From assembly GCF_014203225.1 (NCBI RefSeq), contig NZ_JACHIO010000014.1:62001-126000 (forward strand): a DNA stretch of 64,000 nucleotides, given 5' to 3'. Source of the DNA: Granulicella mallensis. GTDB lineage: Bacteria; Acidobacteriota; Terriglobia; Terriglobales; Acidobacteriaceae. The notes under the pieces are model-generated. The model ran no database searches and was not told the origin of the DNA. It saw only the letters and a list, made by a program, of their open reading frames with translations. The translations under genes and the position numbers were made by a program. Shown here piece after piece: positions 16,527 to 44,493 of the stretch. How positions within the stretch are numbered: the stretch's first letter is position 1; each line of letters starts with the position of its first letter.

Positions 16527-17456
16527 ATGGCTGAGACTCTGCAGAGCGGCGCTGTACGTACGCCGCAACTGGTACGCGCGGCACAGGTTGCGCGCGAGGC
16601 GGAAGTTCGCCAATCGGCCAACGGCGTGGCCTTTGCCACCTATGGTGAAACCGGCGTTGACGCCCCCGACCTCGACCGCATGCTGGAGACGGTGCCTGCG
16701 GCCATCGTCGCCTCCCTCAAGAGCAATACCTATTACTTTGTGCCGCTGGCGCTGCGCGAGAATCCCGAGACCGGCGAGAGCACCGAAGCGGACGCCAATG
16801 CAAAGACCAGCACCCCTGCCAACGAGCCGACCATGGTGGCCGGAGAGTATACCGACGCCTTCAGCGATGCCGCTATCTGCCATCGCAACGTAGAGCTGGG
16901 CAGCGGCAACCGCGGCGTGTTCATCTCGACGCGGCTGCTGGGCGACCGCTTCGCGCTGAGCTTCGAGTTCTTCATCAACGTCGCGCATGCGTTCGTCGAC
17001 CAGGCGGGCGTGCCCGCTTCGTTTGCCGACCTCGTGTGGAAGCAGGCCCTCGACAATGTGCGTGGCGAGACCAGCCTCGATGCCTGGGAGTCGCGGAACC
17101 TTGCCTTCGGCCGCCCTGCAAACGCAGAGCCCGAACCTGCAGCCTCGCTTTCGCGGCGCGGGCTTGGACTAGTCACGAAACCGCGTACATTCAGCGGAGC
17201 CTCTTCGAGTACGCCGGCAACATCGGCCACCATCAACGAGAAAGAGCGCGGACTGTATATCGATTCGGCGTTCTCGGATGCCGTTGCGCTGTACCTGCTG
17301 TCGCTGGCGCTGGACTTCGACTACAGCGAGTTGCGTGAGCGCGAGTACCCGCTGCTAGCTCCAGCTGCGCTGGCGGCGCGGCTGCGGCTCGTAGCCGATT
17401 TATTTCCGCCGAACCAGGGGTATGAGTTTGCGGTAAAGTATCGGCGCCGGGCGTAG
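16527..17456 (+). CDS. Conserved hypothetical protein, soluble
   Basis: A 309-residue protein without signal peptide or membrane segments. It has a structured N-terminal part (SNTYYFVPLALREN around residue 65) and a middle segment with many aromatics (FALSFEFFINVAHAFVDQAG). A Ser/Thr/Pro-rich linker around residues 200-235 precedes a C-terminal helical segment (SAFSDAVALYLLSLALDFDYSEL). I do not recognise a family. Base composition and codon use match the neighbours. A strong terminator follows at 17495. Confidence 0.75.
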   Translation: MAETLQSGAVRTPQLVRAAQVAREAEVRQSANGVAFATYGETGVDAPDLDRMLETVPAAIVASLKSNTYYFVPLALRENPETGESTEADANAKTSTPANEPTMVAGEYTDAFSDAAICHRNVELGSGNRGVFISTRLLGDRFALSFEFFINVAHAFVDQAGVPASFADLVWKQALDNVRGETSLDAWESRNLAFGRPANAEPEPAASLSRRGLGLVTKPRTFSGASSSTPATSATINEKERGLYIDSAFSDAVALYLLSLALDFDYSELREREYPLLAPAALAARLRLVADLFPPNQGYEFAVKYRRRA

Positions 17457-17494
17457 CGATTCACAGCGATCTATCGGCAAACGGACTTGAAAGG

Positions 17495-17526
17495 AAAACG
17501 GACTGCACCTTCGTGCAGTCCGTTTT
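17495..17526 (+). terminator. Rho-independent terminator
   Basis: AAAACGGACTGCAC at 17495-17508 pairs perfectly with GTGCAGTCCGTTTT at 17513-17526 around a 4-nt loop, followed by T-rich sequence. Confidence 0.9.
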
Positions 17527-17543
17527 TGCTTTTGCTTTTCTGG

Positions 17544-17696
17544 TTGTCATTCCGAGCGCAGCGAGTGAACCTGCTGTCTCCCGTTCTTTGCTTACATCAC
17601 CCAGAAAGCGTGGGCGACAGCCGAAAAACATGGTTTGCGCCGACAGCGGTTAAAAACGGGAGGAAGCAGGTTCGCTCGCTGCGCTCGGAATGACAA
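17544..17696. repeat. 150-bp inverted-repeat element
   Basis: Arms at 17544-17575 and 17665-17696 (TTGTCATTCCGAGCGCAGCG and its complement) pair over about 32 bp with a few mismatches. A related half copy lies near 52820-52885. It is an intergenic palindromic repeat with no coding capacity. Confidence 0.75.
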
Positions 17697-17713
17697 CTAG
17701 AAAAACAAAGGCC

Positions 17714-18595
17714 TCAAAACTTCCGCAACGGACGCAAAGGCGGCGTGGGCCAACGCTGCGAGCGCATCAACTCGCGCACCTGCTGCTCCCGCTGGACTGC
17801 CGGAGGATGCGAGCGGAAGTAGCCAGCGACGGTCTGCAACGAGATCTGAGCGGCCTCATCGACCGGAGTAGCCGGCTTATCGTCAGACGAATTGGCTTGC
17901 TGCTCCAGCTTCTCGAACTCGCCCAGCAGTTGCAGAATCCCCAGCGGAGAGTAGCCTGCCTTAACCGCAAGCGTGGTGCCATCACGATCGGCCTCCAGCT
18001 CCTGCTCCTTGCTGTAGCCCGCGAGAAAGACCTCCACAGGTAGCCCTACAACAGCGCCGAGCGTTCCCAGTTCGCGCAGGTGCGCCTCTGTCTGCATGCG
18101 CTCCGCGCAGTGCCGCAGGTCGATGTGTTCCACCTCGTGACCAAGCACCGCGGCGAGCGCGTCCTCGCTCTTCATGAGAGCGATCACTCCCTGGCCCACG
18201 AAGACATGTCCGCCGGGAAGCGCGAAGGCGTTCACGAAGGCAGGGTCGGGGATGTAGTGAAACTTCCAGGGCAGCTTACGCCGCGCTCCTGCAGCAGTGC
18301 GCTCGCCAACGGTCTGAAGATAAGCTTCGATGGCGCGATTTTTCGTCGCATCTGCCGGAGACGAAAGCCAGCGTTCTGCATACTCGCTCGCGAGTTCGTC
18401 GCCGAGCGCGATCTCGTCGGCATCGGACATTGGATCGAAGTGCGTGGGAACCCGCGTCGCCTCATGCTGCGCATCCGCCGCAGCCGAGAGGATGCCCTGC
18501 GCCGAAGGCCGTGCAGCGATGCGCTGCCACTGCACAGCCACGATGGCGAAGATGCCCGCGATCACAATAAGGGAAAGAGGAAGCCAGCGTCTCAT
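17714..18595 (-). CDS. M48-family metallopeptidase
   Basis: A 293-residue protein with an N-terminal membrane anchor or signal (LPLSLIVIAGIFAIVAVQW) and an M48 protease domain. The zinc site is LGHEVEHIDLRH (HExxH) around residues 150-161 and the third ligand is in KEQELEADRDG (ExxxD). LPGGHVFVGQGVIAL before it is also typical of BepA/LoiP-like periplasmic proteases. Its start overlaps the stop of the DUF2339 gene by ATGA, so the two are translationally coupled. It probably acts in envelope quality control. Confidence 0.9.
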   Translation of the reverse strand: MRRWLPLSLIVIAGIFAIVAVQWQRIAARPSAQGILSAAADAQHEATRVPTHFDPMSDADEIALGDELASEYAERWLSSPADATKNRAIEAYLQTVGERTAAGARRKLPWKFHYIPDPAFVNAFALPGGHVFVGQGVIALMKSEDALAAVLGHEVEHIDLRHCAERMQTEAHLRELGTLGAVVGLPVEVFLAGYSKEQELEADRDGTTLAVKAGYSPLGILQLLGEFEKLEQQANSSDDKPATPVDEAAQISLQTVAGYFRSHPPAVQREQQVRELMRSQRWPTPPLRPLRKF

Positions 18596-21500
18596 AGGAA
18601 CTTGAGGATCGTCTCCCGGTAACGTGAGTAGAGGAACGAGACCAGCAGCAACGCGAGGCCCATGACGATGAGCGTGAGGATGCGGTCGTTCGTCGAGGCG
18701 TGCCAGATGTCGTAGAGAATAACCTTGCCTACGCCGAGCAGCAACAATCCGAGCCCCGCGAGCCGGTAGCTGCGTTCGCCCACCGTGAGCGCGAAGAGGA
18801 AGGTAATCAAGCCGAGTACAACCCAGCCCGTGGTGATCATGCCGGCGTGCAGTTGGATAAAGAGCAACACCGCAATCAACGCAAGCGGCACAAAGAAGAA
18901 CGGCTGCTCAGGACGAAAGAGCGTGTACCTGCGCCAACCGGACTTCGCATCGACAGCCTGCAGCGCAAACTGCGCACGAATGCGAAAGGCTATCGGCAAA
19001 GCGAGCAACATCAGCACGCAGATAACGCTGACACAGAAGACGCGCGAGCTTGTGAACGCCGTGGCCAGCGGTGCCGGTGAGAAGAGATGGAACATCGACG
19101 CCCGGATCGCAGCAGCCAGCAGCAGTACAAGAGACTGCGCGACGAAGAGCGTACGCTTCAGCCACCAACCGAGAGCGAGGAGCACCAACGCGAAGAGCGC
19201 CCAGGCGACGCCAACCCAATCCGGCCGCACCTCGAAGTAGAGCAGAGCCGTCGCGGCGATCGTCCCGAGCCACGCGGCGATCATGCCCGCATTCTTCTCG
19301 AAACTCGAAACTCGCATCTCGGCACTCGACGGTTCTCCCTGCAATCGCTGATAGACCCAGAAATAGGCGGCGATCAGCGGCAGCACGGTGTAAAGACGTG
19401 GGCTGAGCGTGTGCGATGCATCGCCAACGTTGAGGTTAGAGAACCAGATCCGCACGAAGCTCGCCGCCAACAACGCGTAGCCCTGGTGACGGAAGTAGCT
19501 GCGCCGCAGCATTGTGCCAAGCTCAAACAGCAACAGCCCGAAGACTCCCCAGGCGACGGCAACCGCGACAGGCTCGAGCTCATACCAGAGCAGTGTGCCG
19601 AATAGCGCTGCCGCAGCCCATGAGTAAGCCGGAGCAATGTAGTCACGAGCAAACCCAAGCGCGCGTGTCTTGCGGAGCATGCCCAGGTAGAGCAGAATGC
19701 CGCTGAGCGTTACGGTGATGGCACGCAGCGAGAGCCCATGCCAATGATCCGTAAGAGAGAAATTGAGGATGGCCGCACGAATGATCGCAACCACAGCCAG
19801 CGCATCGGCCTGCGTAGCGAGGTCGCGCGAGGAAAGCCTGTCCGCAAACCAGGCCAGTGCAAGCACGGCGAGCAGCCACACAACGATCGTCCATGTGCCG
19901 GGGAAGCACACCCACAGCCCAGCGGTTGCGGCAATCAAGGCCAGGTACGAAGTAACTCTCAGGCCAACGCGGTCCAGCTCATTCTCTGCAATGTAGCTCC
20001 AGCGCCGCGTGCAGAACTCCGCGTTGAGCCAGAACAAGACGGCAGCACAGAAGAGAGTAATCGCGAGGTGCAGATGATGCGTTGAATCGACATTGGTCTG
20101 GCGGTAGAGAAAGACGGAGGAGACGCCGGTAATCAGCAGTTGCCACGTTGTCGCAAAGCCTGCGAGCACACCCAGCCGCCGGAAGACGACCTCCTTCATA
20201 CGCACGCCGGCGATAAAGAGAACTTCGGCTTCGAGCAGCCAGAGCAACGTCCAGTGCGATCCGCTGAAGCGGAAGGGAATTGAGGCAAGCAGGAACGCAG
20301 AAGCCAGGGTCGAGAGCACGATGAAGGAGCCGCGCCACTTGCGCCGCCCCAGGAAGGCGAGCGCGAACTCGACGATACCGAGGATCAGTAGTCCTCGGAA
20401 CGCCCACTCCGGATGCGACGACTGGTACTTCAACAGCGACAGCAGACCAGCGGAGTTGAGGATGGCCGTGAACGAAGAGACCATCTCCTGGTTGCGCGTC
20501 TTCGGCACGCGCAGCACGTAGAACAGCCGGAAGAGAAGCCAGTAAAACAGCAGGAGCGCCGCACTCGGGATGAACTCGGGGAACGGATGGCCGGGCTGGC
20601 CGCCATCTGGAAGCACGCGATGCAGCCACAGAAAATGATTGAGGTAGACGCCCACAAGGCCCGCGAGACCGAGCTCGAACCAGTATTCACGCGCCGCGAC
20701 ATAGACAAGCCCCAGAGCCAGCAGCGCGCCAGCAACCAGGCTGAACATCGTGACGTGGCTGATGCCCACGGTGACGAACGCCAGCAGAAATGCGAGGCTG
20801 GTAACTACTTGCGACTTGTACTTGAGCGAGTGCGCCACCATCGCCGCGGTAACGATCAGCATCAGGACAAGGTCGATGCCTTGCGAGGACAACACCTGCA
20901 TCGCCTCCACGTGATACAGCGCGAAGGTAACGAAGAAGGTCAGCGCCCAGCCGCCGCCGATCAGTGCGCGCGCGAAGATGCGGTACTGCTGCTTGCGCTC
21001 CAGCAGTACTCCTCCACCCAAAATGGCTAGGCTAAGTACGACCCCAATAGCACTCTTGCCCGCAGGCCCGATCGTACGCAGCAGAAGGCCGAGACCGCCC
21101 GCGAGACCTATGACCAAAATGACGATGCCGAGCTTGTTCAGCCAGTTCTGTCCCAGCCGTTCTTCGATGGAGACGTGCCGTTTCGTCGCCGCTGGAGGGA
21201 GCGTTGTGTGGAGATCTGGGGGAGATGGCAGATCCGGTGAGGCGTTGCCTGCGGATGCGCTCGAGGGGGTATCGGAAGGCTTTTCTAGAAAAGAGGCAGA
21301 AGAAAAATGTGGTGCAAACGAGGCCTGATCGCCGGAAGCATCTTCTTTCGCTAAGAGCACAGGTTCGGGGGCTGCCCCGAATGGCGTCGAAGAGATGTCA
21401 TCTCTGTTGTCTGTGACGGGAGGTGTTAAAGGAGCGAGGTCTTCCTTCGGCTGGACAACCGATGCAGGAAAGGGTCCTCCACGTACGACAGGCGCAGCCG

Positions 21501-21684
21501 TTTGCGGCGCGACAGAGCTCTGTTGTGCTGCAGCAGCCTGCTCCAGCGCAGTCACACGCTGATGCAGACGACCGATCAGGTCGCTGTGCTGTTCGAGCTT
21601 CTTACGGTTAGCGGTTTGCCCCCGGAGCTTTACAAAGAGCCACAGCACCGCGATCACGAGTACAACAATGACAAAGGAGTCCAT
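18592..21684 (-). CDS. DUF2339 polytopic membrane protein
   Basis: A protein of about 1030 residues: an N-terminal helix, a coiled-coil-like stretch (LIGRLHQRVTALEQAAAAQQ), a Ser/Pro-rich linker to about residue 170, then some 25 hydrophobic segments to the C-terminus. Length and pattern match the DUF2339 family. Its role is unknown; coupling to an envelope protease hints at the cell envelope. The ATG at 21684 is preferred; a TTG two codons upstream (21690) also fits. The C-terminus overlaps the M48 gene. Confidence 0.85.
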   Translation of the reverse strand: MDSFVIVVLVIAVLWLFVKLRGQTANRKKLEQHSDLIGRLHQRVTALEQAAAAQQSSVAPQTAAPVVRGGPFPASVVQPKEDLAPLTPPVTDNRDDISSTPFGAAPEPVLLAKEDASGDQASFAPHFSSASFLEKPSDTPSSASAGNASPDLPSPPDLHTTLPPAATKRHVSIEERLGQNWLNKLGIVILVIGLAGGLGLLLRTIGPAGKSAIGVVLSLAILGGGVLLERKQQYRIFARALIGGGWALTFFVTFALYHVEAMQVLSSQGIDLVLMLIVTAAMVAHSLKYKSQVVTSLAFLLAFVTVGISHVTMFSLVAGALLALGLVYVAAREYWFELGLAGLVGVYLNHFLWLHRVLPDGGQPGHPFPEFIPSAALLLFYWLLFRLFYVLRVPKTRNQEMVSSFTAILNSAGLLSLLKYQSSHPEWAFRGLLILGIVEFALAFLGRRKWRGSFIVLSTLASAFLLASIPFRFSGSHWTLLWLLEAEVLFIAGVRMKEVVFRRLGVLAGFATTWQLLITGVSSVFLYRQTNVDSTHHLHLAITLFCAAVLFWLNAEFCTRRWSYIAENELDRVGLRVTSYLALIAATAGLWVCFPGTWTIVVWLLAVLALAWFADRLSSRDLATQADALAVVAIIRAAILNFSLTDHWHGLSLRAITVTLSGILLYLGMLRKTRALGFARDYIAPAYSWAAAALFGTLLWYELEPVAVAVAWGVFGLLLFELGTMLRRSYFRHQGYALLAASFVRIWFSNLNVGDASHTLSPRLYTVLPLIAAYFWVYQRLQGEPSSAEMRVSSFEKNAGMIAAWLGTIAATALLYFEVRPDWVGVAWALFALVLLALGWWLKRTLFVAQSLVLLLAAAIRASMFHLFSPAPLATAFTSSRVFCVSVICVLMLLALPIAFRIRAQFALQAVDAKSGWRRYTLFRPEQPFFFVPLALIAVLLFIQLHAGMITTGWVVLGLITFLFALTVGERSYRLAGLGLLLLGVGKVILYDIWHASTNDRILTLIVMGLALLLVSFLYSRYRETILKFL

Positions 21685-21825
21685 AGGCAATTGCTGATGA
21701 GTATTCCACGAATGCCGTCGGTTTTGTTTGTCGCTGTCCGTCCAAGGGGAGCGATTATTCTGTGGCAGTTATGTCGATCCATGCCCTGCGCACTGGATCT
21801 TCGATTGCCGCTCCTGCAGAAGAGC

Positions 21826-22617
21826 TTAGCTCTTGGTTTTCTCGTAGACGTGCTTGTTGTCTACGATGCCCGCTTTAAAGATCTTCCGAATTCCCTGTCG
21901 CAGTGCGATATCACCCTGTAGAACGAGATCCCGGACGGGTTGTTCCGGCCTGCCACGGAAAGAAGTCACATGGAAGTACTCGTGATCTTCAAGTGGCTTG
22001 GCAGAGAAGTAGTAATTCGATACACAGCAGCGTGAACGATCTACAGTTACCTCGCTTACCGAGTGCCAGGATTTTTCATGAGTGGCCATCAAGGCCAGGC
22101 GATTGAAGTGGCTGGTGATCTCCCGCTGCGGGGCCTTCGGTCCCTCGTCCCAGAGTTCGAGATTGCCACCCTGCTCATGACTCCAATCGGGTGTCACGTA
22201 GTAGAGCAGGTTGAGAACACGGTACCGCTCACGATCCTTATCGTGGGAGTTATCAAGATGGGGATTCAGGAAGTTGCCCTGTGCCATCAAGCTGATTCCG
22301 CCCGCATAAAGCCGGTCGTCTGGAACCATCTCCTGGATTCCTGTAATTTGAGCTACAAGGTCGAGAACGCCAGGATCCTGAAACGCATAAACGATCTCTT
22401 CCAGGATGGGATTGTACTGGTTCATCTGCGCGGCAACGTGCTTGTTTTCGCGCAAGCTCTTCTTCAACGTCATCGTGCTCTTGTCGGGAAAGGCATGAAA
22501 GATTTCGAGCGCCAGTTCTTCCGGTAGAAGATTGTCGATGAAGGAACTCTGAACCGTGTACTTCGGAAATTCGCTGCGCATACGATCAGCCTCCGCTCCG
22601 AGTCTGGCTTGTATCAA
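21826..22617 (-). CDS. 2OG-Fe(II) oxygenase
   Basis: A 263-residue soluble oxygenase of the prolyl-hydroxylase-like superfamily. The iron ligands are visible as NPHLDNSHDKD (HxD around residue 120) and SWHSVSEV (His around residue 185), and an Arg for 2-oxoglutarate in DRSRCCVSNYYFS. The double-stranded beta-helix core is complete and the length is normal. Such enzymes hydroxylate amino acids, proteins or secondary metabolites; the substrate is unknown. It is monocistronic. Confidence 0.85.
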   Translation of the reverse strand: MIQARLGAEADRMRSEFPKYTVQSSFIDNLLPEELALEIFHAFPDKSTMTLKKSLRENKHVAAQMNQYNPILEEIVYAFQDPGVLDLVAQITGIQEMVPDDRLYAGGISLMAQGNFLNPHLDNSHDKDRERYRVLNLLYYVTPDWSHEQGGNLELWDEGPKAPQREITSHFNRLALMATHEKSWHSVSEVTVDRSRCCVSNYYFSAKPLEDHEYFHVTSFRGRPEQPVRDLVLQGDIALRQGIRKIFKAGIVDNKHVYEKTKS

Positions 22618-22919
22618 GGCTGCGTATTCTTTACGATTCCTTACCTATTCTATAGTATTTGTCTCATGGCGGCTTCCGGAATTGGACTGGCTCTTTGGAG
22701 GCCTGCAAAAGCTGATCCGCCGGGCGCATCAAGATCGATACTACGATCATACCTCCTCAAACTTGAAAGTGAGAAACGCCCCCCTAGAGGATGACGGTGG
22801 GATTCGACTCAGGCGATATGTAAGCTTTTCAGGGCGTCGCGGAGATGTTTTACCTTCGACTCGGTCTTCAGTTTGCTCATCATCCCACAGGAAAGCCCAA
22901 GGATGGCTCTCATAGACTT
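22618..22919. other. Intergenic gap without recognised feature
   Basis: About 300 bp between a minus-strand oxygenase gene and the next minus-strand gene. Somewhat A/T-richer than the surroundings. I see no gene, hairpin or repeat I can name. Confidence 0.5.
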
Positions 22920-23450
22920 TTACAGATGCAGGCTGGGGCATTCCACCTGGGGAAGCGGCGGCGAACCGTAGTTGTGGTTCTCGCTCCAGACCATCAGGCG
23001 ATCTCCTGCGGCAGGAATACCGATCCATTGATCAGCCTTAACCTTGACCGTGCCGCAAACCAGTTCCTGCAGTAGTAGTCCTTTGACATACTCCACGGTG
23101 GCGTGGGCTCCCGGTGGATGTCCCAAAGGTGTACCAGCGTACTTCCAGTGCATCGTCGAGCCCAGAGAGAGACTCCGCACTTGTATCGACTTTGAACCGG
23201 CATCGATCTCATCCGGCTGACCGTCTGCAAAGAGCGTGAGATACGCTCCCGCAGGTAACAGTGCGCCATAGGCCTTCCATTCGATGTCCTCAGAGAGCAT
23301 GACCTTTGCCTCGACAAGGGGCACATCTTTCTCGTTGTTCGTCGTCAGCTCAAGATGGCTTCCGGCCGGAATCGTAAGGGTTGGGAACACACGGTTGGAG
23401 GAAAGATTGCATTCCAACAACTGACCGTTGGGGCCCAGTCTCACGCCCAT
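22920..23450 (-). CDS. Conserved hypothetical protein, beta-rich
   Basis: A 176-residue protein without signal peptide or membrane segment. Alternating hydrophobic residues (TIPAGSHLELTTNNEK, ALLPAGAYLTLFADG, SRKSIQ-like strands) suggest beta structure. A stretch of prolines and glycines with HWKYAGTPLGHPPGAHATVEYVK-like spacing lies near residue 105. No family was recognised. It directly adjoins the mnmE-tail remnant at 23532. Composition matches the chromosomal background rather than the island. Confidence 0.6.
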   Translation of the reverse strand: MGVRLGPNGQLLECNLSSNRVFPTLTIPAGSHLELTTNNEKDVPLVEAKVMLSEDIEWKAYGALLPAGAYLTLFADGQPDEIDAGSKSIQVRSLSLGSTMHWKYAGTPLGHPPGAHATVEYVKGLLLQELVCGTVKVKADQWIGIPAAGDRLMVWSENHNYGSPPLPQVECPSLHL

Positions 23451-23531
23451 CGCGCAGGGCCAATGCTAGCGTACGACTTTGACGTCAATCGAACAGCTAT
23501 TAACGTCTCAGGGATACTGCTCAATGTAAAG

Positions 23532-23628
23532 TTACTTGCTGATGCAGAAGGTGGAGAAGATACGTCCCAGGATGCCATCCGTCGTCGTCGCGCCGGTAAG
23601 GGAATCAAGCGGCCGCAGGGCTCCGCGG
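23532..23628 (-). pseudogene. Remnant of an mnmE 3' end
   Basis: From TTACTTGCTGATGCAGAAGG at 23532 this segment follows the last roughly 95 bp of mnmE (30214-30310) at about 85 percent identity by eye, including the stop codon and the ACGTCCCAG and GTCGTCGTCGC segments. It then ends abruptly before a TIGR03435 gene. It is an mnmE fragment, displaced or foreign. A shorter, closer copy lies at 24631. Confidence 0.85.
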
Positions 23629-23646
23629 CTGGAGAAGCTGGGCCTG

Positions 23647-24609
23647 ATGCGGAAGTCTGTGCTGGCCCTGATGATGCTGGCTACCGTTGCCGGACCACTC
23701 CTCTTTGGTGCGCGCTATGGGGAGGTGAGGGCCCAGCAAACGCTGACCGAAGACTGGCAGAAGGCTGCGGGTGGAAAGATGGAGTTTGAAGTGGCTTCGG
23801 TGAGGTTGAACCCGGGGCAGGGTGCGCCGTCGAATTTTCGTTTGAGCCCGGATGATGCCTACGCGCCCACGGGAGGGCTGCTGACTGCGGATGCTCCGTT
23901 GCCGACCTACATCTTCTTCGCGTACAAGATCATGCCCACGCGTGAACAGTTTCAGGCGCTCTTTGGGCAGCTTCCGAAGTGGGTACAGACGGACAATTAT
24001 GAGATCCATGCGCGAGCCGCTACGAAGAATCCGACGAAAGACCAGATGCGCCTGATGATGCAGTCCCTGCTGAAGGAGCGGTTTGGTCTGGTGGCACATC
24101 TTGAGACGCAGGAGACTCCGGTGCTGGAGATGACCTTGCTCAAGCCCGGAACCCTGGGGCCGCAATTGCATCGGCATGAAGATGGGCCAGCTTGCGATGC
24201 CAAGGTCGCAACGGTTCATGGAGCGGAGCTGAAAGAGACGGAAGTCTTTCCAGCGCAATGTGGTGGAGTCGAGGCAGAGAACAGACCAGACCACACGATT
24301 CTGATGGGATCGCGAGACACGACGATGGAGATGATCGCCAAGGCCTTTCAAATTGGCAGGCTGGGCCGCCCAATCATGGATGCGACCGGATTAACCGGGA
24401 AGTATGACTTCACCCTGAAGTGGACGCCGGCCCATGGCGATTTCGGACAGAGGCCTCAGCCGGGATCCCCAGACGAACCTGCGTCTGATTCTCAGGGAAC
24501 GACCTTTCAGGAAGCGGTGAAGGAGCAGCTTGGATTGAAGCTGAAGCCGGGGAAAGCTCCGCTGAAGGTGCTAGTGATCGATCATGTGGAGCGGCCTTCG
24601 ATGGATTAG
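23647..24609 (+). CDS. TIGR03435 family protein
   Basis: A 320-residue protein of an Acidobacteria-expanded family of unknown function. After a hydrophobic N-terminus ([21 protein letters not shown]) comes the family opening [35 protein letters not shown] and [15 protein letters not shown] follow, and the end is [12 protein letters not shown]. The open frame continues upstream into the mnmE remnant, so the ATG at 23647 is chosen. The N-terminus resembles the hinge between M56/BlaR1 sensor and TIGR03435 parts in fused relatives, so this may be the tail of a truncated fusion (inference). Confidence 0.82.
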
Positions 24610-25091
24610 CTATCTCGCGTAAAGTAGTTTCTACTTGCCGATGCAGAAGGTCGAGAAGACATGAATCGCCTTTATTCATAATAGTAAGATAAAAGCGGCT
24701 CGCGCTGGAGACATACCGGAGACATAAGATGCCTTTGCATTTCCGCTTAACAATTTGTAGGCATCGATTGCAAACATATTTGCGCACGGCTCTCCGGTTG
24801 GATCACTCCGAGGCACAAAGCAGTTGGGGGTTTCACAATTCGGCACTTGAACTTGACCGGAAATCTGGCGCAGGTTCAGTTGTCCGGCCTCGCCGCTCCC
24901 TGAGAGGCGTAAACCGATTTTTGTCTTTCGATTAGCCTCTAATCTTAGGAAAGAGGCGCAGAGTTTGCCCAAACCGGCTACGAGTCGTTCAAAGCACTAC
25001 ATCGAGGCCTAGCTCCTGTCGCCACGCTACATGACACGCCTCGATGAAATTGCCGACGTTCGGGCTTAGCTTGGATACTCTAAAAACTTAA
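24610..25091. other. Left flank of the island, no clear gene
   Basis: About 480 bp containing the mnmE-tail repeat at 24631. A minus-strand frame at 24676-24972 (98 codons, two Cys pairs: NCETPNC and EPCANM) has no recognised family and no good ribosome-binding site; it may be a gene fragment. Composition is clearly A/T-richer than the chromosome. Confidence 0.5.
24631..24660 (-). repeat. mnmE-terminus direct repeat, likely attachment site (distal)
   Basis: Matches the last 30 bp of mnmE at 30214-30243 in 27 of 30 positions, including the stop codon (TAG in place of TAA). The two copies bound 5.58 kb of accessory genes. The 3' end of mnmE is a known insertion site for SGI1-type integrative elements. 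Confidence 0.8.
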
Positions 25092-26114
25092 TTGGACTCA
25101 AACATATTAAGCTTGGTGACAACAATTCAGCGTGCAGAAAAGAGAGATTCAGTGGAACGGCTTCGTTACTCTGTCAGTTTGGTGAATCAAGGAAAACATC
25201 GCTTTTACACGCTCACCATGCCGAGCGACGTACTCGCGGAAACTTGTTTTGTATCTAGTCGTGACGAAGACCCGAAGGCTGGCTTTCAGAGGCATCTCGA
25301 CGCTGACCGAGCACAAGCGATCGCGGAATATATCGATAGTGGACACGGAACCATCCCCACGTCCATCATCCTGTCCGCCCAGCCCCAGGCAGAACTCAAG
25401 GACGTAGGGAAGGGCAAGACGATCGAAATCGTGAAAAGTCCAAAAGCGTTTCTCATTCTCGATGGGCAACACCGCGTGTATGGGTTTTCAAAAGCAAAAA
25501 CCAAGATCTTGCGAATTCCAGTCGTGATTTACAACGACCTTTCGCGCAAAGATGAATCGCGGCTGTTCATTGACATCAACACAAAACAGCGGCCTGTGCC
25601 TAATGAACTGTTGCTCGACATTAAAAAATTAGCCGAATACGAGACCGACAACGAGCAAATTCTCGGGGAAGTTTTTGATCTTTTTCAGGACAGCCCCGCA
25701 AGCCCACTAATGGGCCTAATGAGCCCTGCGGCGAAGGCGAGCGGGAAAATCTCACGCGTGACCTTCAACGCGGCGTTAAAGCCACATCTAGCTATCTTCT
25801 CTAGTCTTTCGTCAGAGGAGAGTTTCGAGGCCCTCGCCGCGTACCTGTCTGCGTTGATTGAGAGTGGCAAACAGCTAAAGGTTTTAGATCACATCACAAA
25901 ACCTCAGGTATTTCGTGCCGTCATCTTCTTATTTGGGGATGTTGCTCAAAAGGTCCAGGATCGACATGGGAAGGATTACAGCGCAGCAAACTTTAACGAA
26001 ATCCTTAGGCCAATGTTTCAACGCCTGAAAAATAGCCTTTGGAATGACACGACTTCATATGTGAAGCTTCATGCGCAAATGGCTGACGCCCTGAAGACGA
26101 CTTTCACTCTCTAA
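25092..26114 (+). CDS. DGQHR-domain protein, DndB-like
   Basis: A 340-residue protein carrying the diagnostic FLILDGQHRVYGF motif at about residues 120-132, preceded by FQRHLDADRAQAIAEYI and followed by SRLFIDINTKQRPVP, all features of the DGQHR/DndB family. DndB regulates phosphorothioate modification of DNA; other DGQHR proteins lie in islands with unknown roles. There are no dndA/C/D/E genes here, so a Dnd role is unlikely. The start codon is TTG at 25092; no ATG gives a full-length protein. One base separates its stop from the next gene, so the two form an operon. Confidence 0.85.
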   Translation: MDSNILSLVTTIQRAEKRDSVERLRYSVSLVNQGKHRFYTLTMPSDVLAETCFVSSRDEDPKAGFQRHLDADRAQAIAEYIDSGHGTIPTSIILSAQPQAELKDVGKGKTIEIVKSPKAFLILDGQHRVYGFSKAKTKILRIPVVIYNDLSRKDESRLFIDINTKQRPVPNELLLDIKKLAEYETDNEQILGEVFDLFQDSPASPLMGLMSPAAKASGKISRVTFNAALKPHLAIFSSLSSEESFEALAAYLSALIESGKQLKVLDHITKPQVFRAVIFLFGDVAQKVQDRHGKDYSAANFNEILRPMFQRLKNSLWNDTTSYVKLHAQMADALKTTFTL

Positions 26115-26115
26115 T

Positions 26116-27090
26116 ATGTCACTCGTATCAGATGCCATTCGGCAACTATGGCTCCCGCGAATTCAGACCGTCGTAGGCAGGCCCCTTAAGGGCTTTGGCC
26201 CCTTCGTGCTTGATCAGAAATACCAGATTCACGTAGCCCCCACAAATAAAAGCGCCGAACTGGTTTACGCGGATGAAATGGTGGTATTAAAGGCCTTCGC
26301 TTTCGACACCACCCGATTTGCAACGGCGGCAATCGAGTCCATGGCAGACGAGCCCGCGCATGCGGCTCTTCCAAAATCTACTGCTTGGCTACTCATCCGC
26401 AGCTATTACGCGGCGTTTTTTGCCGCTCACGCAATCGCCCGAATGCTGGGCGTGAGCTACACACGGTTTGAGCCCAAGCACTGCAAAGCTATCGGGAAGA
26501 TCGCAAACTTGTTCGCGGAGAGTGTCGGCAATCCATTACCGCCGCAGCTGTCGGGCGGTCTCTACAGGTGTGAGGTTTCTCGGAACAAGAAAGCCGTGAC
26601 CTGCAGCCTTTTAGGCGATAGCGGCGGTGGCTCACATGAGATTTTTTGGGAAAGCTTTCAGGCTTTGCTAAGAGGCGTTGCAAACGATTTGCTCACATCA
26701 AACATTGGTCTGCCGGAGAACAATCAGATGGCATCTCAAGCTATCGACGTTCTCTGCGACGTGATGAACATTCGCGGGAAACAGGGCGCATGGCTGTCAG
26801 TTGTGCGTAATGAGATCAACTATCAACAAGCCTGGGGTTGCTGGTACCCCTATAACCATCAACTGGAAAAAAGTGCGTTCACAGTCGCCCGAGCCAATAA
26901 GTGGCTCGATGATTTGCCCAATATTGGGTTGGCGGTCGGGAATGCTGAAGTCCAACGCTTTCAGGGGGCGACCTCGTTTCTTGTGAGCCTGTGCCGGGAG
27001 ATGGCAGTCGACATGGCGTCTCGCGCTCCATCAAGAGGAAGCAGTTTTCACAGCGTCGGTGTTCTCGCGATTCTCAAACTTTTAGAGTGA
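26116..27090 (+). CDS. HEPN-like partner of the DGQHR protein
   Basis: A 324-residue soluble protein translated from an ATG one base after the DGQHR stop. Residues 93-112 (LIRSYYAAFFAAHAIARMLG) look like the first helix of HEPN domains, where RxYYAxFxAA is common. VVRNEINYQQAWG near residue 230 could be the second helix, but the catalytic RxxxxH of HEPN ribonucleases is not present in standard form. The pairing and the island setting suggest a two-component module. No firm family assignment is made. Confidence 0.65.
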   Translation: MSLVSDAIRQLWLPRIQTVVGRPLKGFGPFVLDQKYQIHVAPTNKSAELVYADEMVVLKAFAFDTTRFATAAIESMADEPAHAALPKSTAWLLIRSYYAAFFAAHAIARMLGVSYTRFEPKHCKAIGKIANLFAESVGNPLPPQLSGGLYRCEVSRNKKAVTCSLLGDSGGGSHEIFWESFQALLRGVANDLLTSNIGLPENNQMASQAIDVLCDVMNIRGKQGAWLSVVRNEINYQQAWGCWYPYNHQLEKSAFTVARANKWLDDLPNIGLAVGNAEVQRFQGATSFLVSLCREMAVDMASRAPSRGSSFHSVGVLAILKLLE

Positions 27091-27251
27091 TGCCTCGCCC
27101 GTCCCTAGTCCACGGCCAGCCAGGTAGGATGAAGTTGCAACAATAACGGCTTCGGTATCCGTTACTCCGTGAAAGATTTCATTATCGCGGAGATGAACAA
27201 CCCCGACACAACCGCGTAGGTCCTTACTTCGCAACCGCAGAGGAGGTAGAG

Positions 27252-28448
27252 ATGCTCCCATTACGTTTTGATGAGATAGGCAGCGAAGACATACTCAAGC
27301 TCGTGGCTGCGAAGAATCCCGAGCAGAAAACGCTGGAATACAAGGCCAAGCTGAATATCGACACAGGAGATGAAAAGGCAGAGTTTCTCGCCGACATCTC
27401 ATCCTTCGCCAACGCATCCGGCGGTGACATCGTCTTCGGCATCTCTGACGAGCGAGATGGCGAAAACAAGGCAACAGGCATACCGGGCGAGATCAGCGGT
27501 CTATCAATCGAGAATCCTGAAGCTGAGCTTGGGCGCGTCTCACAGATTATTGAATCAGGGGTTCAGCCCCGATTCGCTTTTCAGGCGAAGGTCATTTCGA
27601 TTCCCGATAAAGGGTCGGTCATTTTAATTCGAGTGCCGAAGAGCTGGGATTCGCCGCACATGGTCACCTATTCCAACCGCACGCGGTTCTATTCAAGAAA
27701 CGGCATCGTTGGCAAGGTGCAGCTCGATGTGCGCCAAATCGGAGCGGCTTTCGCAGAGCAGCGCGGCGTCGGAGAGAGATTGCGAGCTTGGAAGGCAGAC
27801 CGCATCGCAAAAGCCGTGGCAGGTGAAGGCCCGGTTGAGCTAAAGGGCGTATCTGTACTCTGGCACTTCGTATCCGTCCCCACACTGAATGACGATCAAG
27901 TGCTACCTCGCGCTTTCAATACGAGCATGCTTCATGGGCAGCCTCTCATGAGCTTGAGCACGGAATTTGTGAGATATAACGCCGACGGATACCTGATGTC
28001 CTCTCATAACGTGCACGGCACAGCCCGATCTTATCTGCAGGTTTTCCGAGAGGGGCACCTCGAATACGGGGACTGCTACGCCTTGGATTCAGATCATGAC
28101 GGTCATATAGCAGGCGGCATTATGGAGGACAAGCTGATAAACACTTTCGGGCGAGCTGCGTTACTGCTGAAGGCACTTGGTACTGCCGATCCGATTTTCG
28201 TTTGCTTGACGCTTATTGGAATGAAGGGAATCGACATTTATTTGCCGTCTCATGCTCAAAGTTGGAACGGCGCAACAAGTCTCCCGTTTGATCGCGATAT
28301 CATCATCTGCCCAGACATTCAGCTGCAAAACCTCGACGAGGGAGAACCCTACCGCTCGACACTTCGGCCAATCGTGGATGCGATATGGCAGGCTGCGGGA
28401 AGAGAGACTTCACCATACGCCAAGATGCGATGGGATGCGCAGCAATAG
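27252..28448 (+). CDS. AlbA_2 (Schlafen-type) domain protein
   Basis: A 398-residue protein. The first 170 residues form an AlbA_2/Schlafen domain (PF04326): TLEYKAKLNI near residue 30, then DISSFANASGGDIVFGISDE and GVQPRF, and TRFYSRNGIVGKV. The C-terminal half (about 200-398) has no recognised fold but contains many aromatics and repeats of DGHIAGG-like turns. AlbA_2 domains occur in nucleases, regulators and defence genes. The ATG follows a strong GAGGAGG ribosome-binding site. It is about 160 bp downstream of the HEPN-like gene on the same strand. Confidence 0.83.
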   Translation: MLPLRFDEIGSEDILKLVAAKNPEQKTLEYKAKLNIDTGDEKAEFLADISSFANASGGDIVFGISDERDGENKATGIPGEISGLSIENPEAELGRVSQIIESGVQPRFAFQAKVISIPDKGSVILIRVPKSWDSPHMVTYSNRTRFYSRNGIVGKVQLDVRQIGAAFAEQRGVGERLRAWKADRIAKAVAGEGPVELKGVSVLWHFVSVPTLNDDQVLPRAFNTSMLHGQPLMSLSTEFVRYNADGYLMSSHNVHGTARSYLQVFREGHLEYGDCYALDSDHDGHIAGGIMEDKLINTFGRAALLLKALGTADPIFVCLTLIGMKGIDIYLPSHAQSWNGATSLPFDRDIIICPDIQLQNLDEGEPYRSTLRPIVDAIWQAAGRETSPYAKMRWDAQQ

Positions 28449-28616
28449 GTAGACTCGCTCATTGCCGACGATCACTCGAATCTGTATCTCTCTTCGAGTC
28501 GATCTCTACGATTTCCACCAGCACTCAGAAACCATATATCAAAGTATTTCCCTACAGAAAAGCGGTATCTCTTAGTTGAAACTGCGTCGGAGTGGTGTCA
28601 TCGGAAAATGAAGAAA

Positions 28617-28914
28617 TCAACAGGACGCGCAAATTGAGTCGCCTTTCGCCGCCGACTCACCTCCAAGGAGGCAATCCCGCCAATAGTGTTCTGGGAGATG
28701 CCCAATTCCTAACTCTTGGCCCCTGACTTCATATTCGCAAAATCGATCCCAAGTCGAGTCGTGGGGCATCACGCGGCGATTCTCTATCTCATTCACAGTC
28801 TGGCGGCACAGACCTATGAATCTTCCCAAGCAAGATTGTGACATTCCGTCCTCCTCCGCAACGCAATGAAGCGTTCAGCGATTGCAGACCTGTTCTCAGG
28901 CTTTTTGGGGTCAC
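28617..28914 (-). pseudogene. XRE-family regulator broken by frameshifts
   Basis: Frame one from 28844 gives MSQSCLGRFIGLCRQTVNEI followed by ENRRVMPHDSTWDRF, the second half of a helix-turn-helix of the XRE type. The missing first helix is in another frame just upstream (KKPENRSAIAERFIALRRRTE), and a possible GTG start (28914) is in a third. Single missing bases in ACGGAATG and in the C-run near 28907 would restore one protein. I therefore read it as a decayed gene, although sequencing error cannot be excluded. It probably once regulated the island. Confidence 0.7.
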
Positions 28915-29009
28915 CTCGGTTCTAGATTGGTCGTCGAATCGGCCTTCAGATTAATTCTGAAGATCGATTTTTGCTGACGGATCAATCTTATCTATAGCGG
29001 AGTTTTTCG

Positions 29010-29540
29010 TCAGGGAAGACGAATGCTTAGCCCTGAGTTTGGGCCTGGCGGCAGTCCCAGCGCAGTATCTGTACCGATATGTGCTCGCAAGTCTGTGAGC
29101 AACTGTTCGACTTCAATATCTGTTCCAATCATGACTTCTGATTCAGGCCGCGGGTTGGATACATGTTTGGCGCGATAAACGACCAATCGATTCGTACCTT
29201 CCGCTTTGGCACGAGCACATAGACCCCTCATGTAGAACCTATTGAACTCACCCTCACTAAGAGTTTCAGGCGTTGTAATTGGCACCTTAACCATTGATGT
29301 GCCATTTTTGGTTTTTCTGGGCTCATGGCTCTTCAAGCGACCCGTCTTGACCAACTCCGCCGCTAATGTTCCATCATGCCCATCGACTGCGGCGTTCTTC
29401 AAGAGCTGTGCATACTCCTTCGCACATTCTTCTGTCAGTCGAGGGCTGATGTACAAGCATCCTTCTTGAACGTCTCTCTCGATCTCCGCAATCATGTGCT
29501 GCCGGGTCATTTCGTCGAGATGATGCAGGTTCAGTGCCAT
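29010..29540 (-). CDS. Conserved hypothetical protein (island)
   Basis: A 176-residue soluble protein beginning MALNLHHLDEMTRQHMIAEI. It has LYISPRLTEECAKEYAQLL, then SEGEFNRFYMRGLCARAKAEG, which resembles the start of a wing or nuclease-like region, then VYRAKHVSNPRPESE, and ends GLPPGPNSGLSIRLP. I recall similar proteins on integrative elements of proteobacteria, but no function is known. It is about 140 bp downstream of the 42-residue basic gene on the same strand and may share its transcript. Confidence 0.75.
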   Translation of the reverse strand: MALNLHHLDEMTRQHMIAEIERDVQEGCLYISPRLTEECAKEYAQLLKNAAVDGHDGTLAAELVKTGRLKSHEPRKTKNGTSMVKVPITTPETLSEGEFNRFYMRGLCARAKAEGTNRLVVYRAKHVSNPRPESEVMIGTDIEVEQLLTDLRAHIGTDTALGLPPGPNSGLSIRLP

Positions 29541-29676
29541 ATGAATAGCCTCCAGAGCGCTTTAGTCGATGATCCGCTGGCTGACAAGACATAACAATCG
29601 ATAGTTAAGTTCGGTTGAATGCCGGGAGTTACCAAGTGTTCTGTAGTCATTTTTCTGACCAAATTGCGGCATGGGC

Positions 29677-29805
29677 TTAACGCTTCTTTCCACCCTTCTT
29701 TTTCGCCTGTGCAAGATCTGATGCTGCAACGCTTCTGATAGCCGCGCTCTTGCTTGTACTCAGGAGCTTGCCTGCTTTACTGGCATCCTTCTTCGATGTG
29801 GCCAT
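29677..29805 (-). CDS. 42-residue basic protein
   Basis: The ATG at 29805 is preceded by a good ribosome-binding site (AGAGGTG). The product begins MATSKKDASKAGKLLS, continues with SAAIRSVAASDLAQAK and ends KKKGGKKR. Lys, Ala and Ser dominate; a short helix and a basic tail are likely. Similar tiny MATSKK-type proteins accompany other mobile elements (recollection, unverified). The function is unknown; the clean start and its position upstream of a conserved gene support it. Confidence 0.65.
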   Translation of the reverse strand: MATSKKDASKAGKLLSTSKSAAIRSVAASDLAQAKKKGGKKR

Positions 29806-30213
29806 AGTTTCACCTCTGGTTAGTTTTGACTCAGTGGTTGATTGCAGCCTGTTTCTACTTTTTGAAATGCTCGTTGCTGTTTATATGAATAGCTTTACGC
29901 TTCAACTTGACCGCATGTAACTGTCACAGCAATTAGAAAGGAAAAAAAATGCTATCGGATATACATTACATCGTGCGTCTCACCGTAACTTAGCATCGCT
30001 GATGCCTTTAGGTTGAGAGCCTTGATCCCAATTTGACACAGAGCCGTACCACCTCACTTGTACAGCAGCGATTAGGACCCCAATATGACGCAAGTGTACA
30101 GCCATGTAGCAAAGAATCGCGTGAGATTGCAGGAGAGGATCAGATGAAACAAAACACAATGCCCTGATAAATAGAAATATGCCGCAGATCTACGGAGATT
30201 CTAGGATGCTAAA
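29806..30213. other. Right flank of the island, no gene seen
   Basis: About 400 A/T-rich bases between the small basic gene and the mnmE stop. It should hold the promoter of the minus-strand gene pair. I saw no integrase, tRNA or repeat apart from the mnmE terminus itself. Confidence 0.5.
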
Positions 30214-31764
30214 TTACTTGCCGATACAGAAGGTCGAGAAGATACGTCCCAGAATGTCGTCTGTCGTCGTCGCACCGGTGAGGGAATCGAGAGCGCGCAG
30301 GGCTGCGTGCAGGTCAAGCAGTACTAGTTCGTGAGGCAGGCCGTTGGTGTTGGCGGCCTGGGCGGTGGTTAGGGCTTGCAGGGTTGTGGTGACGGCTTCC
30401 TGCTGGCGGAGGTTGTTCAGGGCGCCGGAGTCGGCGAGGGCTCCTTCGGCTTGTAGGGCGCGGAGGATGGCTGTGCGCAGTTCTTCCAGTCCTTCGCCGG
30501 TGAGGGCGGAGGTGAGGATGGGGGGCGGCTCTTCCTGGGGCTGGGCTGCTCCCTTTGCTGAAGACGAGATTTGGGGGGATGCGGGCGAAATACAGGGGTC
30601 TCTCCACTCCGGCCGCAAAAGCGCGGCCTCCGGTCGAGATGACAGCGTTTGGGGTAGGTCCATCATGACGGGACTTAGAGCAGCCCCTGCCGCGCTAGAG
30701 TCCGGGCCCTGGAGGTCGATCTTGTTGAGCACCAGCAGATGCGGGCGGGCTTCTAGGGAGGCGGCCAGAGTTCGTTCTTCTGCCGTCATCGTCTGCGTGG
30801 CGTCGTGGATGAGCAGCACCAGGTCGGCGTCGGCGAGGGCTTCGTGGGAGCGGGCGATGCCGAGGGCTTCGGCTTCGTCGGCGGGACGGTCGCCCTGCAG
30901 GCGCAGGCCAGCGGTGTCGATGAGGCGCAGCGGGATGCCGCCCAGGGCTAGCGATTCCTCCACGGTGTCGCGGGTGGTGCCGGGCAGCGGGGTGACGATG
31001 GCGCGGTCGCGCTCCAGCAGGCGGTTGAAGAGTGAGGACTTGCCCGCGTTGGGGCGGCCCACCAGCGCCAGGGAGGCGCCGGAGCGGAGCATCTGTCCGT
31101 GACGGAAGCTTGCGGCCAGGGCTTCGAGCGGGGTTTGCACGGAGAGGATCGCCGCTTCGATCTGGGCGGGCGGCACGACGTCGACATCGTCCAACTCTCC
31201 CGAGGCGAAGTCCATTCCGGCTTCGAGCAGGGCGATCAGGTGCAGCAGCGACTCCTTTGCGGGAGCCACGCGGCGGCTCATCGCGCCCCCCATCTGCTGC
31301 GCGGCGACGCGGGCCTGATCGAGGGTTTGCGCGGCGATCAGGTCGTGTACCGCCTCAGCCTGAGTGAGGTCCAGGCGGCCGGAGAGGAAGGCGCGCTGCG
31401 TGAACTCTCCTGCGGTCGCCAGGCGTGCGCCATGCGACAGCGCTGCGTGCACGATCGCCTCCAGCACTACCGGCGAGCCGTGCGCGGCGATCTCGATGAG
31501 GTCGTCGCCGGTGTAGGAGTGCGGGGCGAGGAAGGCGGTGACGATGGCGTCGTCGAGGGTTCTGGCGTTGGGGTCCGCGGGATCGAGCACGCGGGTGAAG
31601 CGGGCGCGGGCGTGCTCCAGGGGGTGGGTCAGTTGGAGGAGTTGGGCGGCGACGGGGAGCGATTGCGGACCCGCAAGCCGCACAATGCCGATGCCGCCAC
31701 GGCCCGGCGGTGTCGAGATGGCGACGATGGTGTCGACGTCGGGCGAGGCGGGGTGCGTGAGCAT
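30214..31764 (-). CDS. mnmE: tRNA modification GTPase MnmE
   Basis: MnmE with MnmG adds the carboxymethylaminomethyl group to wobble U34 of some tRNAs. The N-terminal domain begins DTIVAISTPPGRGGIGIVRL. The G domain has GRPNAGKSSLFNRLL (G1), GTTRDT (G2), LIDTAGLR (G3) and LNKIDL (G4), and the C-terminus is the conserved CIGK. About 45 extra residues sit between NKID and the G5-like TSALTGEG; they are encoded by a dispersed DNA repeat. The ATG at 31764 is preferred to a GTG at 31779. The last 30 bp are the attachment site of the neighbouring island. Confidence 0.95.
   Translation of the reverse strand: MLTHPASPDVDTIVAISTPPGRGGIGIVRLAGPQSLPVAAQLLQLTHPLEHARARFTRVLDPADPNARTLDDAIVTAFLAPHSYTGDDLIEIAAHGSPVVLEAIVHAALSHGARLATAGEFTQRAFLSGRLDLTQAEAVHDLIAAQTLDQARVAAQQMGGAMSRRVAPAKESLLHLIALLEAGMDFASGELDDVDVVPPAQIEAAILSVQTPLEALAASFRHGQMLRSGASLALVGRPNAGKSSLFNRLLERDRAIVTPLPGTTRDTVEESLALGGIPLRLIDTAGLRLQGDRPADEAEALGIARSHEALADADLVLLIHDATQTMTAEERTLAASLEARPHLLVLNKIDLQGPDSSAAGAALSPVMMDLPQTLSSRPEAALLRPEWRDPCISPASPQISSSAKGAAQPQEEPPPILTSALTGEGLEELRTAILRALQAEGALADSGALNNLRQQEAVTTTLQALTTAQAANTNGLPHELVLLDLHAALRALDSLTGATTTDDILGRIFSTFCIGK
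30586..30645 (-). repeat. Dispersed repeat inserted in frame within mnmE
   Basis: On the minus strand this reads GTCATCTCGACCGGAGGCC, a short stem around 30611-30628, then GGAGTGGAGAGACCCCTGTA. The same repeat occurs in intergenic DNA near 15986 and, split by an insertion, at 46553-46795. Here it is translated within the G domain of MnmE without a stop. Confidence 0.75.
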
Positions 31765-32114
31765 AGTTAAGGATGACACGATAGGTTCCAGCGGAGTGGG
31801 TTTCTCTGTGGGCTGTCGCCACGGCTGAATGTGGGGTTGGCGACGAGCTGTGGCGGTCGTACGGTCTTTTGCATTTTGAGCAGCGGCGAGCGGTCGAGGT
31901 GGTGCCCAATGCGGGGGTCCTTCGCGTACCGCTCAGGATGACGACGAAAAACAAGCAACAGCTAAAAACAGGCAACGGCGCACATCTACCCCTCTACAAC
32001 CCCAGCCCCTGTAATACCCCAGCAATCATCCCACCGCGCCATGCCCGCCACCATTTATCATAGGAGTTGCGGATTTTGCGCCTTTCTCGCAACCGCCAAG
32101 AATAGGAAATCCCT
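31765..32114. repeat. Gap between mnmE and yidC, with repeat arm
   Basis: A divergent-promoter region of 350 bp. Positions 31909-31945 (AATGCGGGGGTCCTTCGCGT, then ACCGCTCAGGATG) recur nearly exactly at 51892-51928, so this is an intergenic repeat arm. No gene seen. Confidence 0.65.
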
Positions 32115-43938: not shown

Positions 43939-44493
43939 ATAGAGGGACGATACCGGCGCCTCTATTACAGAACGCTTAAGACAATGTGAATGCTGTGTAG
44001 AAATCGTTTATCTTCAGGCTGTTGCTGCGTCTTTGCTGTTGTCTTTATCGTCGTTGCGGAGTCATTGCCGCAGGGACTCTGCTTCCCGCCCGCTGCGCGA
44101 AGCGCCAACCGAGACGCTTTAGCGTCGCGGGACGGACGGAGGGAGCCGTAGCCTTTAGGCTACGGAATCAGGGGCTAAGCGAGAATCGGGCTTTAGCCCC
44201 GGGCCTTTTGTTCGCAGCCGAAAGAAAGCCCGGGCCTAAAGGCCACATCTTTGCTAAGCCTGAATTCCGTAGCCTAAAGGCTACGGCTCCCTCCGTCTCC
44301 CTGATGCTGAAGCATCAGGGAACGCGCTTCGCGTTGTGCGGAACAGACCATCATTCTTTAACGAATGAACGACTCACCACACTAGAGCAAATCTCCTGTT
44401 GCTGGGAAGTTGAATCGGGCGTGCAGTACCGTTTTTCTAAGGAAAACGTCCATAACTGTCACGGTTCCGCGATACACCTACAGGAGATTTGCT
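43939..44493. repeat. Long inverted-repeat region between receptor 3 and parB
   Basis: Arms at about 44138-44180 and 44258-44303 pair (GGAGGGAGCCGTAGCCTTTA and complement). An inner stem GGGCTTTAGCCCCGGGCC-like lies between. A partial GCAAATCTCC copy is at 44387-44402 and a full inverted copy at 44469-44492 overlaps the parB stop. No gene seen. Confidence 0.75.
44469..44492 (-). repeat. GCAAATCTCC dispersed repeat at the parB stop
   Basis: Reads GCAAATCTCCTGTAGGTGTA on the minus strand, directly after the TAA of parB (44494-44496). Matches 13971-13994 and 34135-34158. Confidence 0.8.

Follow-up and report, generated by a model that had tools for sequence, protein, structure and literature searches.

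A probable integrative-element remnant at the 3' end of mnmE in Granulicella mallensis

Among described systems, the closest to the locus reported here are Salmonella genomic island 1 (SGI1) and the cis-mobilizable elements (CIMEs). The target of SGI1 is the last 18 bp of trmE/mnmE (PMC6531882), SGI1-related elements are described in Gammaproteobacteria (PMC9035990), and SGI1-type elements have flanking direct repeats, form tandem arrays, and have backbones of 16.5–30.7 kb (PMC9035990, PMC2297512). CIMEs have lost their integration and transfer genes and have kept attL and attR (PMC5704250). In this study we analysed a 64,000-nucleotide stretch of DNA from the acidobacterium Granulicella mallensis (contig NZ_JACHIO010000014.1, positions 62,001–126,000; called the window, whose own numbering is used throughout), which contains a 5.6-kb island downstream of mnmE. 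Positions 24631–30243 very probably represent what is left, after decay, of an element that integrated site-specifically at the 3' end of that gene.

With SGI1 the island shares the target, the last 18 bp of mnmE, and the flanking direct repeats. It differs in belonging to another phylum, in being much shorter than the SGI1-type backbones, and in its genes: no int, xis, rep, tra, or mps family was matched by the island proteins. The SGI1-type link drawn in an initial annotation of this DNA thus holds for the target site and not for the backbone; no SGI1 backbone gene was found, and the island proteins match only DndB/DGQHR and Schlafen families. The island also resembles a CIME. It is without integration genes, has core sites on both sides, and lies at the target site of integrase-bearing relatives, and units of this kind occur in tandem, as in genome G191 (G and L numbers are our labels for genomes and loci). 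The CIME assignment covers the integration genes and core sites, and the island differs from CIMEs as described in that its attL is incomplete, because the integrase-side arm repeats are missing.

Core repeats and distal end of the island

The features that delimit the island are as follows.

30214–31779, minus strand: mnmE, the target gene, encoding a tRNA-modifying GTPase; an intact open reading frame (ORF) ending in FCIGK-stop, with Pfam matches to MnmE_helical, TrmE_N, and MMR_HSR1
30214–30243, minus strand: copy A, the mnmE-side core site, with the 18-bp core at 30214–30231
24631–24660, minus strand: copy B, the distal core site, with the 18-bp core at 24631–24648
24649–24727, minus strand: distal end of the element inside the core, with homology to the corresponding end of the integrase-bearing G067 element (blastn and position-by-position identity)
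24707–24715 and 24718–24726, minus strand: a pair of arm-type direct repeats with the sequence TATGTCTCC, at distances of 95 and 84 nt from the outer core end
23532–23625, minus strand: copy C, a 94-bp fragment of an mnmE 3' end, core part 23532–23560, lacking element arm repeats
21726–30213, no strand: variable stretch, replaced in the closest relatives by other DNA (13.3 kb in G003, 12.1 kb in G009)

Copies A and B are identical at 27 of 30 positions and have the same orientation, as the initial annotation had reported. In none of 100 dinucleotide-shuffled versions of the window did a 29-base pattern find a match (3 mismatches allowed). Genome-wide (6,472,662 bases in 52 contigs), the 27-base core pattern occurred three times with up to 3 mismatches, each time inside the window. 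Both copies named in the annotation are therefore real; the third, copy C, had been overlooked. The 5.55 kb separating copies B and A has a GC content of 50.4%, whereas the conserved left flank has 60.6% and mnmE 68.0%; it lies below all 888 equal-length overlapping stretches taken outside 21726–30213, the lowest of which had 54.3%. This bears out the earlier description of A/T-richer DNA between the copies.

The DNA adjoining copy B resembles the distal ends of elements that still carry an integrase. When window positions 21700–30250 were compared by blastn with loci from the family, 24633–24727 matched the distal end of the G067 element (72.6% over 95 nt, E=1.1e-7), and the same region matched an orphan end in G302 (72.2% over 97 nt, E=2.0e-4). 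Over the 68 inner positions adjoining the core, the window and G067 were identical at 43, a value reached by none of 9,136 other placements. Identity with copy B was 34, 30, and 31 of 68 for G199, G176, and G158, equalled by 0, 0, and 1 placements, and 29 each for G387 and G302, equalled by 6 and 4.

The arm-type repeats point in the same direction. A repeat pair at −95/−84 from the outer end of the core was present in the window, G067, G158, G176, and G387, and within two bases of these positions in G144, G199, G390, G365, G336, and the first G191 unit. The sequence of the repeat varies from element to element; its position hardly changes. On the integrase side the motif of each element recurs at +87/88, +113/114, +124/125, and +162 in G067, G158, and G176 (for G067, +88, +114, +125, and +162), and G387 has three of the four positions. 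In the layout of the acidobacterial elements, the integrase thus mostly starts some 184 bp past the mnmE end, and the repeats lie near +88, +114, +125, +162, −95, and −84. These direct repeats fit the arrangement expected of integrase arm sites, and we regard them as putative arm sites.

The version in the window, TATGTCTCC-GG-TATGTCTCC, is that of G067. With one mismatch allowed, it was found once in the G. mallensis genome (at copy B), twice in G067 (at both ends), and once in G302 (at the orphan end); there was none in G003, G009, or G012. The window and G067 therefore share the core, a homologous distal end, and the sequence and spacing of the arm repeats. They differ in that the G067 element is 21.4 kb long and retains a 420-aa integrase.

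The genomes closest by mnmE are G003 (90% identity) and G009 (89% over the first segment). Both share mnmE and the left flank (window 16868–21725) with G. mallensis and differ in between; a tblastx synteny comparison revealed nothing beyond this alignment. A wider sample of the genus comprised 20 mnmE stretches from 19 of its 27 other genomes, G003 and G009 included, several of which end at contig ends. None of the 20 had the repeat: apart from the local mnmE end itself, the closest match to it had 11–15 mismatches in 30, versus 3 in the window. One of the genomes sampled, G012, has an integrase after mnmE. Because G003 and G009 carry other DNA, the genus genomes lack the repeat, and G012 has an integrase, the locus downstream of mnmE is a variable spot. 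As to the opposite picture, the same content at mnmE in all relatives with no deviation in composition, G003 and G009 differ from the window here and the GC content deviates. Short stretches elsewhere (17521–17712, 31905–31971, 44383–44491, 51770–51953, and 52826–52888) match places in G003 or G009 at 72–94% and look like dispersed intergenic repeats.

Integrase-bearing elements at the same site

The mnmE-end pattern was searched in 398 genomes of the family with one mismatch allowed, so that ends more than one base different were missed, and 282 genomes had a match. A closer look at 11 two-copy genomes gave core pairs on the same contig, 4.6–26.7 kb apart, in G158, G176, G199, G067, G365, G387, and G390. 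G266 (cores 314 kb apart on one contig) and G302, G350, and G038 (cores on two contigs) were not counted as elements; the orphan end of G302 was used in the distal-end comparisons. Distal cores with up to 3 mismatches were additionally found in G144, G336, and G191. Across the elements where it was seen, the second core copy lay 4.6–29 kb further on.

A tyrosine integrase of 394–450 aa begins shortly after mnmE in G158, G176, G067, G387, and G390; in the family elements its start is mostly about 184 bp after mnmE. The G387 protein has the Pfam domains Arm-DNA-bind_3, Phage_int_M, and Phage_integrase. Besides the window, the two-core units include seven with an open integrase frame (G158, G176, G067, G387, G390, G336, and the first G191 unit), two in which the integrase is broken (G365, Edaphobacter lichenicola X5P2, and G144), and two in which none was found (the G199 mnmE unit and the second G191 unit). 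G191 is Granulicella sp. S190 and, like G365, belongs to the Acidobacteriaceae; its two mnmE-type units (L076/L077), 22.8 and 10.5 kb long, stand in tandem. In G199 the DNA beyond the distal core looks, by eye, like the integrase-side end found in other elements, as though another unit had once stood there.

With the G158 integrase as query, the 398 genomes yielded 24 matches in 23 genomes at E≤1e-60. Nineteen had at least 49% identity, and 18 of these have an mnmE core just upstream; G125 (49%) was kept among them, with no mnmE core in the roughly 450 bp before its integrase. The five matches at 34–38% identity were not counted as members of the mnmE clade (G180 and four others, the latter on a different contig from mnmE).

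A profile built from an alignment of four family integrases was then scanned over the genome_contigs collection (84,980 species). It gave 79 loci, almost all labelled Acidobacteria or Proteobacteria. In 75 of the 79 an mnmE end lies 35–232 bp upstream of the matched integrase, at 183–188 bp in 60 of the 75; the loci without an adjoining mnmE end are L139, L160, L161, and L166. Distal cores, sought with one mismatch allowed and up to 10 kb after the integrase, were present at 4 of the 79 loci (0 in a reversed-sequence control).

An integrase follows mnmE in at least four Escherichia coli genomes, going by the 8 rows listed out of 5,374 records. In E. coli tcmA_3 and RM9088 a tyrosine integrase of similar length directly follows mnmE and is 39–41% identical to five intact acidobacterial integrases. 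These islands differ from the one in the window in that the integrase is present, with an annotated start about 320 bp after mnmE, the cargo is other, and there is no second exact core in the approximately 20 kb examined. The tcmA_3 island (L174 10335–19193) lies between mnmE and tnaB; in it the tyrosine integrase is accompanied by genes for a reverse transcriptase and a phosphoribosyltransferase-like protein. A Proteus hit (H1, 36%) was dropped as an mnmE element, having no exact mnmE core in its 9.2-kb stretch.

Origin of the island and of copy C

The distal end resembles that of G067 and has the same repeat pair, no integrase remnant was detected, and the integrase-side repeats are missing; we therefore consider the island, with high confidence, to be a decayed remnant. 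With no integrase gene shortly after mnmE, it is classed as a remnant and not as an active member of the group. The ancestral element would have carried a tyrosine integrase, which we take to have been of the P4 type, a label that comes from its Arm-DNA-bind_3 domain. This integrase would have recombined the attachment site of the element with the last 18–27 bp of mnmE (FCIGK-stop). Integration would have placed the element downstream of mnmE, and the displaced mnmE end would have become copy B on the distal side, with mnmE kept intact because the element supplies the same codons. The integrase and the neighbouring arm repeats would later have been lost, most simply by one deletion that removed the gene together with its arm sites, and the distal end with its two arm repeats would have survived along with the accessory genes (the DGQHR/DndB-like pair and the Schlafen/AlbA_2 gene). 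The G199 unit offers a parallel: it is without integrase and integrase-side repeats and has the distal repeats. The proposal in the initial annotation of an integrated element now lacking its integrase is thus supported by the integrases at the same site in the family (G012 in the genus), the shared distal end, and the arm-repeat geometry.

The mnmE side of the island contributes one further feature.

30178–30213, minus strand: possible remnant of the integrase-side end (weak), from a profile of 19 integrase-bearing loci

Several observations weigh against the interpretation of the island as a decayed element. Arm repeats were not found on the mnmE side of the island, where they are expected near +88, +114, +125, and +162. 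The first 36 nt after mnmE are only moderately like those of other elements, ranking 414th of 127,930 positions with the 19-locus profile, which itself misses some true members when they are left out (G060, with 18,325 positions better, G397, G144, and G224) and also fails with G199. For comparison, among 19 mnmE stops not followed by an integrase (three have one sequence in common), G024 ranked 446 and the other 18 ranked 4,033 or worse. At the other end, a profile built from six further distal ends placed copy B 10th among 127,938 window positions, but these six were picked by eye after the ends had been seen, one of them (G144) fails when left out, and a profile of all eleven distal ends drops copy B to rank 112. 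The distal ends of G144, G365, G336, and both G191 units are near background in comparison with copy B, and that of G390 (23) is little above it. Low GC reaches past the island to the left of copy C (53.2% at 21726–23531). Copy C is without an element end, and one integration does not account for it. Finally, the comparison with empty-site strains suggested in the initial annotation gave relatives with other DNA and no repeat (G003 and G009), but no clean empty site among the genomes compared.

The island could instead be a non-autonomous satellite, devoid of an integrase from the outset and moved in trans by an mnmE-type integrase elsewhere, which we consider unlikely. Such a satellite would agree with the lack of an integrase remnant in the window, where the lowest E in a tblastn search was 0.29 (seven mnmE-clade integrase queries, two being halves of the broken G365 gene), and with the G199 and second G191 units, which likewise have two cores and no integrase. 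A related integrase does exist elsewhere in the genome: among 21 tyrosine-recombinase matches, none on the contig of the island, the nearest to the G158 integrase is L017 on contig C1 (phmmer 1.6e-52). However, a working satellite should keep both arms, and here the integrase-side arm repeats are missing; nor did the G158 integrase find any match in this genome at E≤1e-60.

Still less probable for the island is duplication of the mnmE end by homologous or illegitimate recombination with incoming DNA, with no site-specific recombination, because the element-type end and the arm repeats beside copy B are left unexplained. Copy C is what favours such a process. It is identical to copy A at 80 of 94 positions, and 10 of the 14 differences are at third codon positions, which suggests descent from a second mnmE lineage that was functional. 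Among the ends compared its best match is the mnmE of the window itself (80/94), followed by that of G003 (76/94). As a second element end copy C was rejected: it ranked 94,277th of 127,938 positions, worse than 94,000th with both the six-end and the eleven-end profile, and has mnmE coding sequence where arm repeats are expected. Rather than an attachment site, it seems to be the mnmE end of a different functional lineage, displaced by incoming DNA recombining here; copy C most likely originated by duplication of this kind. One gene separates copies C and B.

23641–24609, plus strand: TIGR03435/DUF3738 gene (family matches), convergent to mnmE

Ordinary vertical inheritance of the genes downstream of mnmE, with a chance repeat, can be dismissed with near certainty, since G003 and G009 are without the block and the repeat, no chance repeat arose in 100 shuffles, and orf2 of the island is in just 3 of 398 genomes; in its favour is only a TIGR03435 gene convergent to mnmE in G009 as well. 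That gene was not accepted as an ancestral mnmE neighbour common to both genomes, given 40% identity and 42 matches to the family in the G. mallensis genome itself.

Cargo and significance

The island contains the following genes.

25092–26114, plus strand: DGQHR-domain (DndB/DpdB-like) protein, 340 aa; Pfam DndB 2.2e-16, NCBIfam TIGR03187 6.6e-46
26116–27090, plus strand: orf2, 324 aa, no named family; follows the DGQHR gene
27252–28448, plus strand: Schlafen/AlbA_2-domain protein, 398 aa; Pfam 7.1e-16
28617–28844, minus strand: small ORF, 75 aa, from the ORF list; no family in Pfam or NCBIfam
29010–29540, minus strand: orf5, 176 aa, an accessory gene present in 6 of 339 family genomes, its own among them
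29677–29805, minus strand: small lysine-rich ORF, 42 aa, read from the sequence; no NCBIfam match

The DGQHR protein falls below the DndB and DpdB equivalog cut-offs of NCBIfam. In Dnd/Dpd DNA modification systems, DndB or DpdB accompanies dndCDE or dpd partners; no partner family was matched in the island proteins, and the rest of the genome was not searched. PADLOC gave only the DpdB/DndB-like match and a weak PDC-S50 match for the cargo. The product of orf2 had no Pfam, PADLOC, or NCBIfam match, and AlphaFold run without an alignment gave no usable model (mean pLDDT 38.9). The three genomes with orf2 include G. mallensis, and in two other acidobacterial genomes (L086 541–2448 and L087 3–1138) a DGQHR gene stands directly before the orf2 homologue, its product 63% identical to that of the window in one and 46% identical in L087, whose truncated end leaves 67 residues to compare. 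By these sequence comparisons, DGQHR and orf2 make up an unnamed two-gene unit.

For none of the five larger island proteins did phmmer (E≤0.01) find a relative among the proteins predicted in the other loci under comparison. Twenty cargo proteins of other mnmE-site elements were scanned and included a resistance-nodulation-division (RND) efflux pump in G199 and a DnaB-type helicase in G176. The G199 unit with the pump (L053, G199:C2:362900–375500) is the integrase-less one noted above. The G387 element (L054/L055, G387:C74:47300–76500) is 23.5 kb long and has, besides its open integrase frame, type I restriction-modification genes and a TIR-AAA-TPR protein. From the resemblance to DndB and the cargo of other elements at the site, we would guess that the island cargo may serve in defence.

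Our search of the literature on acidobacteria and mnmE found no work on islands, judging by titles and the opening of abstracts; the literature on mnmE islands was mainly on SGI1-type and other islands, and subscription papers were mostly beyond the search. Because E. coli genomes have an integrase after mnmE and SGI1 uses the same target, elements at the mnmE end are already known as a kind; the acidobacterial elements and the remnant in the window are new members, as far as the literature searched goes. We lean toward a broader view, held with much less assurance than the origin of the island itself, in which one integrase clade is dedicated to the last mnmE codons across at least two phyla, with a near-fixed layout and changing arm sequence, and the island is a relic whose arm repeats tell the specificity of its integrase and whose unnamed DGQHR and orf2 genes are a possible defence unit.

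In Acidobacteriota too, then, mnmE is an integration site for site-specific islands, beyond the Gammaproteobacteria in which SGI1 was studied. A remnant without an integrase may be assignable to an integrase type by its arm repeats alone. The near-fixed geometry and changing arm sequence of the acidobacterial elements would provide a natural data set on the recognition of arm sites by integrases.

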